64,000 nt of DNA from Henriciella litoralis (lineage in GTDB: Bacteria; Pseudomonadota; Alphaproteobacteria; Caulobacterales; Hyphomonadaceae), in contig NZ_NCSS01000004.1 in the NCBI RefSeq assembly GCF_002088935.1, positions 124,001 through 188,000 on the forward strand, read 5' to 3'. This document shows positions 52,631 to 57,821 of this stretch, in pieces. Position 1 is the first letter of the stretch. Each line of letters starts with the position of its first letter. The notes under the pieces are model-generated. The model was not told where the DNA came from. It ran no database searches and saw only the letters and a program-made list of their open reading frames with translations. Made by a program: the position numbers and the translations under genes.

Positions 52631-52993
52631 TCAGGCCGCGGCAAGATTTACTGGCGCAGCCGTTGGGCGCAGACACATCGATTTGAGCACCGGGCTTAGC
52701 CCCGCCTCCAGGTCAGCAATCAGCGCCTGCCGGACATCAGCATCAGCTTCATCGCGGACAAAGACAGCCGAAGCGCCATAGCGCCGCGCATCCATCATCG
52801 CCCAAGCGGCGTCCAGCGCCCCCTCCTGCCCGCGCAGGTCCACAATACGCACGACCCGCCATCCATAGGCATCGCTGGCGACCAGAAGCGCGATGCCGGT
52901 GCGCGACGTCCACGCCATCAAGCTGTCTTCATGAGTGAAGGTAACAGGTTTGCCGGACCGACCGACGAAACTGGAAGCGGTTTGCAGGCGCAT
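52631..52993 (-). CDS. Conserved hypothetical protein
   Basis: A 120-residue soluble protein with no signal peptide and no recognised domain. It has a ferredoxin-like alternating pattern (LMAWTSRTGIALLVASDAYGWRVVRIVDLRGQ, LDAAWAMMDARRYGASAVFVRDEADADVR). AGGAGG stands 6 nt before the ATG at 52993, which fixes the start; the frame further upstream is not supported. It converges with the DUF885 gene (8 bp gap) and diverges from nadA. Confidence 0.7.
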   Translation of the reverse strand: MRLQTASSFVGRSGKPVTFTHEDSLMAWTSRTGIALLVASDAYGWRVVRIVDLRGQEGALDAAWAMMDARRYGASAVFVRDEADADVRQALIADLEAGLSPVLKSMCLRPTAAPVNLAAA

Positions 52994-53212
52994 AATGTTC
53001 CTCCTTTGTTCCGCCCCAAGGTATTCCTTTTTTGGACCGGCGCAAGCGATCTTTGGTAAACGAAACCTTAACCGCGAGGCCCCGCCCATGGGCGTCACAA
53101 AATTGATATTTTGCTTGCAAAGCCGTATCCGCCGCCATAAACGCGCTTATGCTCACCCTGCCTATAAGGGGTGATGCTCGATGGTGATTTCCTCTCTTTC
53201 CGCGCGAAAGTC

Positions 53213-53257
53213 TTGAAATCGGGCATCTGTGTACTTATATAATGCTCAGATTGAGCA
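53213..53257 (+). promoter_or_regulatory. Candidate nadA promoter with palindromic operator
   Basis: A good -10 box TATAAT (53238-53243) and a -35-like TTGAAA (53213-53218, 19 bp spacer) precede the nad operon. Immediately downstream of the -10, TGCTCAGATTGAGCA (53243-53257) is a perfect palindrome spanning the likely transcription start. The half-site ATGCTC recurs at 53149-53154 and 53174-53179. Probable repressor site; NadQ-type regulators are the NAD regulators I associate with alphaproteobacteria, but the identity is inferred. Confidence 0.65.
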
Positions 53258-53277: not shown

Positions 53278-54426
53278 ATGGCCAGACTTATTGATTCCGG
53301 ACCCGGCTGTCCGACCCCAACCCCAATTCGCGCGAAAAGCGCCGCCGAAGCGCGCGGCCTCGTCTATGACGACGCGGTGAAAGCGGAAACCGAAGCGCTG
53401 TACCCGCTCGTGTCAGACTTTGTGACGCCGATGGAGTGGCCCGCGATTGCGCCGCTGGTGGCAGAGATCAACCGCCTCAAAAAGGCGAAGAACGCCGTCA
53501 TTCTCGCGCACAATTATATGACGCCGGACATTTTCAGCCTCGTCGGCGACTTTCGTGGCGACTCCCTGCAATTGGCGCGTGAAGCCGCGCAGGTCGATGC
53601 AGACATTATCGTCCAGGCCGGCGTGCACTTCATGGCCGAGACGTCAAAGATCCTCGCACCGGAAAAGACCGTGCTGATCCCGAGCCTTGAAGCGGGCTGC
53701 TCGCTTGCTTCTTCGATCACCGGCGCTGATGTGCGCCTGATCAAGGAACGCTATCCGGATTATCCGATCGTCACCTATGTGAACACAACGGCAGACGTGA
53801 AAGCCGAATGCCACATTACGTGCACCAGCTCCAACGCCGCTCAGGTTGTTGAAGCGGTCGCCAAGGAATGGAATTCCGACACCGTCATCCTCGTGCCGGA
53901 CCAGTATCTTGCCAAGAATGTTGCGGCTCAGACCGATATTCGCATCATCACCTGGCCGGGCGCCTGTGAGGTGCACGAACTGTTCAGCGCAGATGATGTG
54001 AACCAGCTTCGTGACGCCCATCCCGGCGTCGTCATCCTGGCCCACCCGGAATGTCCGCCAGACGTGCTCGAAGCGGCTGACTTTGCAGGATCGACCTCGG
54101 CCCTTGCCAACTACGTCAAGGATAACAGCCCCAACAAAGTTGTCCTTCTGACCGAGTGTTCGATGAGCGACAATGTCGCCGCTGAAAACCCCGGCGTGAA
54201 CTTCGTTCGCCCGTGTAATCTCTGCCCGCACATGAAGCGGATCACGCTGGAGAACATTCTCGATTGCCTGATCGAGCTGAAACACGAGGTCGAGATCGAG
54301 GAAGATGTGCGCGTGCGCGCCAAGGCTGCGATCGATGCGATGCTGGCCCTGCCGAAAACGGACAAGCCACTTGCTTTCGAAACCGGCCTCAAGCCGATGG
54401 ACATCGAGGTCATTTCTCCGGCCTGA
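53278..54426 (+). CDS. nadA: Quinolinate synthase
   Basis: A 382-residue iron-sulfur enzyme that condenses iminoaspartate with dihydroxyacetone phosphate to quinolinate in NAD synthesis. Recognised by [75 protein letters not shown] and [16 protein letters not shown]; cysteines in [14 protein letters not shown] and CNLCPHMK supply the [4Fe-4S] ligands. GGAGG lies 8 nt before ATG 53278; ATG 53242 overlaps the -10 box and is excluded. It heads the NAD operon. Full length for the longer class of NadA. Confidence 0.96.
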
Positions 54427-54498
54427 TGCCTTGAAGTCGCCGTTTTGACGCGGTTTGCTGATGGCGAACCGCGTCTTTTCCAATCGGAGCCATGCCAA

Positions 54499-54957
54499 AT
54501 GCGTCTTGCCGTTGCCGCCTGCCTTGCCGCCCTCTGCCTTGCTGGCTTGCCCGCATCGGCGCAGGAAGATGACCAACGAGACTCCGGTGATATTCTGGGC
54601 AACTGGACTTTCCAGACAAAGCCATATCGCGAAGGCCGCTGCATTATGTCTGGCACAGCGCGTCTGACGCCCAATCCGGAAAAGGGCGTCTATGATTGCG
54701 AACTGACAGCCGTAGAGGTCTGTTCGATGTGGGGGCGGTCAGTTGTCCTTCAGAAATGCTCCGCACGCCGCTTCGGCAATCAGGTCTCGATCCGCTCGGA
54801 GATTGATCAATTCCTTGAGTCCAAGGAAGAAGGCCTTGTTTACGTTCCGGACAATTTTGCGTTGACGATACAGAGCGCAAAGCGGATGTACGGCTCACTG
54901 GTGTCAGCCGCTACGGCCCCGGCAGAATTTATCCGGTCTGAAGAAGGCATTTCCTGA
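54499..54957 (+). CDS. Secreted protein of the nad operon, paralogue 1
   Basis: A 152-residue exported protein with a signal peptide cleaved after ASA. Its core shares with the next gene the pattern G-x-W-x-F...C...GTARLTPNPEKG-YDCELTA-x-C, followed by a VYVPDNFALTI segment near the C-terminus; cysteines at RCIMSG, YDCELTA, VCSMW and KCSARR may form disulfides. No known family. GGAG lies about 9 nt before ATG 54499. Its stop overlaps the next start (TGATG), so the pair is translationally coupled within nadA-nadB. Confidence 0.8.
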   Translation: MRLAVAACLAALCLAGLPASAQEDDQRDSGDILGNWTFQTKPYREGRCIMSGTARLTPNPEKGVYDCELTAVEVCSMWGRSVVLQKCSARRFGNQVSIRSEIDQFLESKEEGLVYVPDNFALTIQSAKRMYGSLVSAATAPAEFIRSEEGIS

Positions 54958-55403
54958 TGCAGAGAGCTGCACACTCAATGATCGGCTTGGCCGGGTTGGC
55001 GATGGTGTTTTCAGCCGCGCACGCCCAGACGCTGCCGCCGAACATTGCAGGTCTCTGGAACTTTGAGGCCCAATTGCCGGATGTCTGCGACTTTGACGGC
55101 ACAGCCCGCCTCACCCCAACCGAAGACCCCGCCGAATTTGGTTGCGAATTGACCGCCCGCCAGTATTGCCCGGAACTCAATGTAACCTATGTCGTCGAAC
55201 AGACTTGCACTGCGTCCATCATCGAAGAAGGCGTGATCGTTCAGTCGACAATCGTGAACTTCATCGAAGGCGAACCAAGCGTGAATTATCGGCCTGACAA
55301 TTTCATCCTCACGATCACCGACCCTTCCACCATGACGGGCAAGCTTTTCGGAAGCGAAGAGTTTCCGGCTGAATGGCGACGCGCGAACGGCGCGATATCC
55401 TGA
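54957..55403 (+). CDS. Secreted protein of the nad operon, paralogue 2
   Basis: A 148-residue exported protein with signal peptide ending at AHAQ. It is a clear relative of the preceding product: LWNF, DGTARLTPTEDPAEFGCELTARQYC, and YRPDNFILTITDPSTM correspond in order to the same segments there. Cysteine positions are largely conserved (CDFDG, GCELTA, YCPE, QTCT). It starts at TGATG overlapping the previous stop and ends 22 bp before nadB. Function unknown. Confidence 0.8.
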   Translation: MQRAAHSMIGLAGLAMVFSAAHAQTLPPNIAGLWNFEAQLPDVCDFDGTARLTPTEDPAEFGCELTARQYCPELNVTYVVEQTCTASIIEEGVIVQSTIVNFIEGEPSVNYRPDNFILTITDPSTMTGKLFGSEEFPAEWRRANGAIS

Positions 55404-55425: not shown

Positions 55426-56970
55426 ATGCCCGATCCGATAAGGCTAACGGCCGATGCCCCGGCTGATGACAGCAATATCCTTATTGTGGGCGCGGGTTTA
55501 GCCGGCCTGTTCCTCGCGCTGAGACTTGCCCCTCATAAGTGTACCGTGATCGCGCCTGCCCCGCTGGGCGAGGCGGCGTCCTCGGCCTGGGCACAGGGCG
55601 GGCTTGCCGCCGCGCTAGACCCGCTCGACACTGCAGAAGCGCACGCGAAAGACACGGTGATCGCCGGGGCTGGCCTCGTCGACCCGGTCATTGCCCGGCT
55701 GATTGCCGAGGAAGGCCCGGCGCGGGTCCTCGACCTCATTGAACTTGGCGTCCCGTTTGACCGCACGCCTGAAGGCGCTTTGCAATTGTCGCTGGAGGCG
55801 GCCCATTCGCGTCCGCGTGTCGCCCGCGTGGCCGGTGACCTGGCCGGCAAAGCCATCATGGGCGCCCTGACCACCGCGGTGAATGCGGCGAGCCATATCC
55901 GCCTCATGTCACCCTATCTCGCCGTTGGCCTCCTGCAGGATGACAAAGGCTCTATTGCCGGGGTCATCACGCGTGACCGCAAAGGCCGCCTGGCTCCGCT
56001 TACAGCGCGCGAGACGATTTTCTGCACTGGCGGCTCAGGCGGACTATTCCGCGTGACAACAAACCCGCCGCAATCACGCGGCGATGCGCTCGCCATGGCG
56101 CACCGCGCTGGGGCTCTGATCGCTGATCCTGAATTTGTCCAGTTCCACCCGACCGCCATGGATGTCGGCCTGGACCCTGCCCCGCTCGCGACCGAGGCCC
56201 TTCGCGGCGAAGGTGCCATCCTGCGCGACAGCAAAGGCCGCGCCTTCATGAGCGACTATCATGAGCAGGCAGAGCTTGCCCCGCGTGACGAGGTTGCGCG
56301 CGCCATCGACAGCGAAATCAAGGCTGGACGCGGCGCCTTCCTCGACGCCTCAAAGGCGGTGGGCAAGCATTTCCCGGCGCACTTCCCAACCGTGTTCGGC
56401 GCCTGTATGGCGGCCGGTATTGACCCCCGCCGCCAGCCCATCCCAGTCGCGCCTGCCGCGCACTATCATATGGGCGGTGTCGTCGCCGACGCCTGGGGTC
56501 GCTCCACGCTTGAAGGTCTGTCCGTCTGCGGTGAATGCGCCTCCACCGGCGCGCATGGCGCCAATCGCCTCGCGTCAAACTCCCTGCTCGAAGCCGTCGT
56601 CTTTGCCGCCCGCATCGCCGAGCGCTTGCGCGACGCAGACCATGCCATGCCCGGCGCCGCTTCCGGCGAAGTGCCCACCGATCTGCCAACCGATGCCCTG
56701 CAACAGTTGCGGGTCGACATGGCCAGCAAGTGCGGTGTCATTCGCGACGGCGCGGGCCTCTCCTCGCTGCTCATCGACATTGATAGCGCCGAGGAAGAGC
56801 ACGGCCCCGCCCGCGCCCTTGATGCCGCGCGCCTGATCGCCAGCGCCGCCCTCGCCCGCAAGGAAAGCCGGGGTGGACACTTCCGCTCTGATTTCCCCGA
56901 AACTGATGAACTCGCCGCGCGCACCTTTATTCGCCGCGATGCCAAGAAACCCCTTGAGGAGGTTGCCTGA
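55426..56970 (+). CDS. nadB: L-aspartate oxidase
   Basis: A 514-residue flavoenzyme of the succinate dehydrogenase/fumarate reductase flavoprotein family that oxidises L-aspartate to iminoaspartate for NadA. FAD motif VGAGLAGLFLALRLAP, SSAWAQGGLAAAL, the His-rich substrate site (QFHPTAM, and HMGGVVAD), and GECASTGAHGANRLASNSLLE are characteristic. GGAGAG precedes the ATG. Its TGA overlaps the ATG of nadC (TGATG). Confidence 0.95.
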   Translation: MPDPIRLTADAPADDSNILIVGAGLAGLFLALRLAPHKCTVIAPAPLGEAASSAWAQGGLAAALDPLDTAEAHAKDTVIAGAGLVDPVIARLIAEEGPARVLDLIELGVPFDRTPEGALQLSLEAAHSRPRVARVAGDLAGKAIMGALTTAVNAASHIRLMSPYLAVGLLQDDKGSIAGVITRDRKGRLAPLTARETIFCTGGSGGLFRVTTNPPQSRGDALAMAHRAGALIADPEFVQFHPTAMDVGLDPAPLATEALRGEGAILRDSKGRAFMSDYHEQAELAPRDEVARAIDSEIKAGRGAFLDASKAVGKHFPAHFPTVFGACMAAGIDPRRQPIPVAPAAHYHMGGVVADAWGRSTLEGLSVCGECASTGAHGANRLASNSLLEAVVFAARIAERLRDADHAMPGAASGEVPTDLPTDALQQLRVDMASKCGVIRDGAGLSSLLIDIDSAEEEHGPARALDAARLIASAALARKESRGGHFRSDFPETDELAARTFIRRDAKKPLEEVA

Positions 56971-57821
56971 TGATCGCACCGCCCGCCCTGCCCGATCTGC
57001 TGCTTGACCCGATTGTCCGCCTTGCCCTGTCCGAAGATCTTGGCCGCGCCGGAGACCTCACCACAGACGCCACGATTGCCCCTGGCACGCGCATTGAAGC
57101 GCACATCGCTGCGCGCAAGCCCGGTCGTCTCGCCGGCATGGATGCTGCCGCCTATGCCCTGAAATTGATCGACGCATCGGTAGAGCTCGACCAGCACCTC
57201 GGCGATGGCGCAGAGCTCTCTCCCGGCAGCAAGATCGCCACCCTGTCTGGCTCAGCGCGCTCCATCCTGATGGCTGAACGCACAATGCTGAACTTCATCG
57301 GCCGCCTCTCAGGCGTTGCGACGCTGACCGCAAGGTTCGTGGCAGAGATCGCACATACGAACGCGACCATCGTCTGCACACGCAAAACCACGCCCGGCCA
57401 TCGCGCGGTCGAGAAGCGCGCCGTTCGCTGCGGCGGTGGCACCTCGCACCGCTATGGCCTCGACGACGCGATCCTGATCAAGGACAACCACATCGCCGCC
57501 TGTGGCTCGATCACCGAAGCGCTGAAGCGCGCGCACGCCTATGCCGGGCATCTGCGTATGATCGAGATCGAGGTGGATAATCTTGACCAGCTCGAGGAAG
57601 CGCTGCCACTGAAGCCGCATGCTGTCCTTCTGGATAATATGGACAATGAGACGCTGCGCCGAGCCGTTTCCATGATTGACGGCGTTTGCAAGGCCGAAGC
57701 CTCGGGCGGGGTCAATCTCGATACGGTGAAGGGGATCGCAGAAACCGGGGTCGATTATATCTCGGTGGGCGCCCTCACTCACTCTGCGTCAAACCTTGAC
57801 GTAGGCCTCGACCTGCCCTGA
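56970..57821 (+). CDS. nadC: Nicotinate-nucleotide pyrophosphorylase (quinolinate phosphoribosyltransferase)
   Basis: A 283-residue type II phosphoribosyltransferase that turns quinolinate and PRPP into nicotinate mononucleotide. Motifs are ERTMLNFIGRLSGVATLT, CTRKTTPGHRAVEKRAVRCGGGTSHRYGL, DDAILIKDNHI, IEIEVDNLDQLEEAL and EASGGVNLDTVKGIAETGVDYISVGALTHS. It completes the de novo route after NadB and NadA. Translationally coupled to nadB. Confidence 0.96.
   Translation: MIAPPALPDLLLDPIVRLALSEDLGRAGDLTTDATIAPGTRIEAHIAARKPGRLAGMDAAAYALKLIDASVELDQHLGDGAELSPGSKIATLSGSARSILMAERTMLNFIGRLSGVATLTARFVAEIAHTNATIVCTRKTTPGHRAVEKRAVRCGGGTSHRYGLDDAILIKDNHIAACGSITEALKRAHAYAGHLRMIEIEVDNLDQLEEALPLKPHAVLLDNMDNETLRRAVSMIDGVCKAEASGGVNLDTVKGIAETGVDYISVGALTHSASNLDVGLDLP

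Follow-up and report, generated by a model that had tools for sequence, protein, structure and literature searches.

Exported proteins predicted to form calycin-like barrels occupy the nadA-nadB junction of the NAD biosynthesis operon in Henriciella and its relatives

We analysed a 64,000-nucleotide stretch of the Henriciella litoralis genome (the window), in which two genes for small exported proteins, here called X1 and X2, lie inside a NAD biosynthesis operon on the forward strand. The first operon gene is nadA, encoding quinolinate synthase (53278..54426, +; PF02445, E 1.8e-108). Its reading frame is open also from 53242, and the true NadA start is probably 53278, because homologues align from residue 11-13. 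X1 (54499..54957, +) runs from an ATG at 54499 to a TGA at 54957 and encodes 152 residues, with a signal peptide at about residues 1-21 and predicted cleavage at ...LPASA/QE. Its paralogue X2 (54957..55403, +) runs from an ATG at 54957 to a TGA at 55403 and encodes 148 residues, with a signal peptide at about residues 1-23 and predicted cleavage at ...AAHA/QT. The genes for L-aspartate oxidase, nadB (55426..56970, +; PF00890/PF02910), and quinolinate phosphoribosyltransferase, nadC (56970..57821, +; PF01729/PF02749), follow.

A preliminary description of this DNA had these genes joined by TGATG stop/start overlaps. Such one-base overlaps are present at the X1/X2 and nadB/nadC junctions, but not at the other two: the X2 stop (55403) and the nadB ATG (55426) are 22 bases apart, the TGATG preceding nadB not being the X2 stop, and nadA and X1 are separated by a 72-base gap. 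In the named genomes the distance is mostly -4 or -1 bases between adjacent X genes, about 2-21 bases between X and nadB and about 60-110 bases between nadA and X.

A candidate promoter 5' of nadA (53213..53241, +; TTGAAA, 17 bases, TATATA) was read by eye, and a stricter scan did not recover this element. A hairpin noticed by eye in the nadA/X1 gap (GACGCGGTT...GAACCGCGTC followed by TTTT, at about 54446-54476) was considered as a terminator or attenuator and set aside: the scan did not list it among terminators, and folded nadA-X intergenic sequences differ widely across other genomes. Divergent from nadA, the minus strand at 52631-53098 carries a small open reading frame without a match in a Pfam search, and a similar frame lies upstream of nadA in genome G007 (L173:4501-4863). 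In other genera of the window's family, an NrtR-like NAD regulator gene lies near nadA (L033:10107-11060; PF21906, E 1e-19), with similar open reading frames in L032 and L034.

X1 and X2 align with 37% identity across a core of about 120 residues (E 5e-17 to 8e-17), and thus their likeness is not chance. Both carry the motifs GTARLTP and CELTA, a later Q.C and PDNF, so that the earlier account of two paralogous exported proteins with a shared core between nadA and nadB is borne out. A strongly hydrophobic N terminus is found in 118 of 127 family members, and most of the others look like wrong start choices made by our script. Conservation across the family falls on Y.PDNF, Q85, D118, R146, G34, W36 and the C terminus, which ends in Ser in 118 of 127 members and in Ile-Ser in 95. 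The X1 tail has low pLDDT and is nevertheless conserved, which suggests that it may serve as a contact or processing signal.

Searches of Pfam, NCBIfam and PDB sequences returned no match for the family and no enzyme family, in agreement with the earlier remark that no family name was known for these proteins. No X copies were found on the plasmids searched, and the literature, as far as our partial coverage extends, yielded neither a description of this family nor a case of exported proteins encoded within nad operons. To judge from the libraries and papers searched, the family, its disulfide switch (see below) and its nad-operon address seem not to have been described before, while the fold itself is known.

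Both genes are under purifying selection. Across nine close pairs, dN/dS ranged over 0.014-0.176 in X1 and 0.068-0.160 in X2, the corresponding ranges being 0.011-0.074 in NadA and 0.026-0.149 in NadB; thus, X1 and X2 are real genes. In a quick maximum-likelihood tree, whose branches are long, whose support is SH-aLRT only and whose details are unsure, X1-like and X2-like copies form separate clades spanning several genera each, and other genera carry a third lineage. On this tree the paralogy is old, the X1/X2 split apparently predating the rise of Henriciella. Hyphomonas retains the X1 type only, in a single copy. At L074 (G240), L078 (G201) and L079 (G238), three to four X copies that have diverged from one another stand in tandem, and one copy in G201, interrupted by two in-frame TGA codons, may be decayed.

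The genomic address of the family is strikingly constant. A search with X1 alone matched 35 of 61 relatives, and a wider search with a 39-row alignment matched 73 of 249 sampled genomes of the order. In all 73 carriers, as judged from fetched DNA or match coordinates, one to four tandem X copies lie between nadA and nadB, although at a few contig ends just one flanking nad gene is visible. A separate named collection (Henriciella, Hyphomonas and unnamed relatives) showed the identical gene order at 61 of 61 loci; the two sets are not summed because they overlap in species. The possibility, raised beforehand, that homologues lie mostly away from nad genes thus fails within the order. The companion expectation that X follows nadABC holds in one direction: within the order X is never found off the operon, but many nadA-nadB pairs lack it. 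Four metagenome-assembled genomes titled Acidobacteria or Sulfopaludibacter (L125, L133, L135 and L136) carry Hyphomonas-like nad loci with X, and for that reason their titles are probably wrong.

Beyond the order, 385 genomes sampled from the class and 398 from the phylum yielded two distant homologues, each in another order and neither adjacent to nad genes. One (G376, L167:5636-6394; E 1e-7) is lipoprotein-like; the other (G856, L198:6305-6775; E 6e-16) is exported and lies near ATP-synthase-like genes. A search of 60 congeners of G856 found an X homologue in none.

Structure prediction with AlphaFold2 gave the same fold for both proteins, as the preliminary description had thought worth checking: X1 (mean pLDDT 84.6) and X2 (mean pLDDT 89.1) are each modelled as eight-stranded calycin (lipocalin-like) barrels. 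The top natural structural match of both models is one domain of the quinohemoprotein amine dehydrogenase alpha subunit (1jmx_A, residues 176-283), with Z 13.6 (rmsd 2.2) and 13.4 (rmsd 2.4) and 102 aligned residues each. Designed barrels score equally well, and we therefore take the match as evidence for the calycin arrangement and not for function. With Foldseek alone natural matches were weak, natural lipocalins reaching E 0.005 or weaker, and the matches in a viral structure library were weak, most of them being uncharacterised proteins. Strand alternation suggests that Trp, Phe and Met, together with the predicted disulfides, fill the barrel interior, so that a roomy lipocalin pocket is doubtful.

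The cysteines point to how such barrels may be stitched. X1 has cysteines at residues 48, 67, 75 and 87, and among 47 diverse members, in a pattern that was both noticed and counted in one alignment of the same sequences, C48 and C75 are both present in 41 and both absent in six, without exception; C87 is invariant (47/47), and every sequence (47/47) has exactly one of C67 and C100. The X1 model places C48 on strand B, both C67 and C75 on strand C, C87 on strand D and C100 on strand E. The partner sums (123, 154 and 187) agree with the hairpin centres B-C, C-D and D-E of the model (122, 154 and 187). Because this covariation and these sums fit antiparallel hairpin partners, we predict two cross-strand disulfides, one between C48 and C75 and the other joining C87 to C67 or to C100. 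One disulfide is thereby predicted to have switched its partner strand.

Our preferred explanation, held tentatively and at somewhat less than even odds, is that the X proteins are exported, disulfide-stitched barrels that settled in the nad operon and perform a non-catalytic binding or structural role in the periplasm, at a dose tied to the NAD enzymes. A founder gene would have settled at the nadA-nadB junction early in the order, and would later have been duplicated into one to four tandem copies of up to three old lineages, and repeatedly lost. Gene spacing suggests a single mRNA from a promoter 5' of nadA, with translation probably coupled from X1 through X2 to nadB; the dose of X would be tied to NAD enzyme synthesis. 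X1 and X2 would be secreted to the periplasm, where their two cross-strand disulfides would form, and the working end may comprise the Y.PDNF motif, Q85, D118, R146 and the Ile-Ser C terminus. The weakest step is the last, the role itself, for which non-catalytic binding or a structural function seems most likely. Whether X is a mere resident of the operon or its dose is matched to NAD synthesis, the data fit about equally. That X has kept its place while being duplicated and lost favours dose matching; other inserts in the gap, frequent absence and two unlinked homologues favour mere residence.

The strongest competing explanation, which we consider possible and give roughly one chance in three, is that X1 and X2 are passengers. 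Their envelope job, for example as structural or inhibitor-like barrels, would be unrelated to NAD; the operon would offer steady expression and a permissive site, and coupling to nadB would hinder leaving. Much in the distribution of X is consistent with this. Sister genera house unrelated genes in the same gap: genus g10 of family f2 has a gene for an M50-peptidase-like membrane protein there (L149-L154, for example L150:1277-2233; PF02163, E 6e-10 in one tested copy), and unrelated open reading frames occupy it in L160 and L161 (f3, genus g14), in L162 and L168 (f5) and in L155 and L156 (f4). The junction thus looks insertion-tolerant. Additionally, nadABC occurs without X in most of f3 and in nearly all sampled f2, f4 and f5 genomes, as well as in G007 and G029, which belong to the window's own family and have small genomes. 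In many f3 genomes, including those of genus g23 whose congeners carry X, nadA is separated from nadB by 4-115 bases and X is absent. Since nadABC works without X in these relatives, X is dispensable. The distance of the G856 and G376 homologues from nad genes points the same way, as does the lack of association between X and either PnuC or NAPRTase. Against passenger status, X has never relocated in any of the 73 carriers despite repeated duplication and loss, whereas a plain passenger would be expected elsewhere at times.

Unlikely in our judgement is a periplasmic binder of a NAD-pathway metabolite (quinolinate, NMN or nicotinamide riboside, or another pyridine) that would serve retention, scavenging or detoxification alongside de novo synthesis. 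The linkage to de novo NAD genes is fixed, and lipocalin-like barrels often bind small molecules. Periplasmic quinolinate binding is reported for Bug27 and Bug69 of Bordetella (PMC11452294), a precedent for such a function, though in a different protein family from X. However, no transporter accompanies the X genes, the barrel core looks filled on the models and most relatives manage without X. Among 40 tested genomes PnuC exceeded the cut-off in three and NAPRTase in none, while control genomes matched, and neither showed a clear association with X. Handling of nicotinate, one of the functions first suggested for these proteins, is weakened because NAPRTase was found in none of the 40 genomes, with or without X, and nothing in the analysis pointed to the response to oxygen stress that had also been suggested. 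A slightly less probable variant still is that de novo NAD synthesis in these bacteria has a periplasmic arm, in which a dedicated secreted barrel, translated from the mRNA that also encodes NadA, NadB and NadC, would bind or shield one of the pathway's metabolites beyond the inner membrane, or signal how much of it is present. That X1 and X2 are secreted inhibitors of proteases or lysozymes, of the Inh/Omp19 or MliC type, is very improbable, for although size, export and disulfides are similar and U-Omp19 (7mhw) is among the structural matches (Z 9.6 and 9.4 across 88-90 residues, tied with many unrelated barrels), the models resemble the quinohemoprotein amine dehydrogenase (QHNDH) domain and designed barrels more closely, the Pfam inhibitor families gave no match and the X genes are tied to nad genes, not to proteases.

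These genes define a family of secreted proteins for which a clear fold and disulfides are predicted and whose address in a core metabolic operon is strikingly fixed. Either NAD metabolism involves the envelope in a way not suspected so far, or a gene has been locked for a very long time in an essential operon without serving its pathway. Both alternatives are testable in cultured Hyphomonas or Henriciella strains.

Among known systems, the closest fold match to X is domain II of the QHNDH alpha subunit (PF14930), and the likeness is one of barrel fold, with a D..G.W start in common. In sequence, the 1jmx_A domain is the only PDB match of a wide X profile, at an insignificant E of 0.42; PF14930 in turn matches two X members weakly (best E 0.028, short of the curated cut-off) and neither window protein. 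Profile alignment with hhalign gave a probability of 46-47% over 40 columns only, with a template alignment of three sequences, so that homology is no more than possible. The PF14930 domain is part of a haem-containing enzyme subunit, whereas X stands alone, with four cysteines, Y.PDNF and a nad operon around it. Like the Inh/Omp19 inhibitors, such as U-Omp19 of Brucella, X is a small exported barrel, but it matches no inhibitor family in Pfam or NCBIfam and sits in another gene context. With the lipocalins, members of the calycin superfamily, the predicted models share a barrel of eight up-and-down strands, the G.W of strand A and a conserved Arg in the last strand; X differs in being shorter, in lacking the closing helix and in its probably filled core. 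The operon itself resembles other proteobacterial nadABC operons in having nadA, nadB and nadC in order and co-directional, and differs from them in the one to four exported barrel genes that lie between nadA and nadB.
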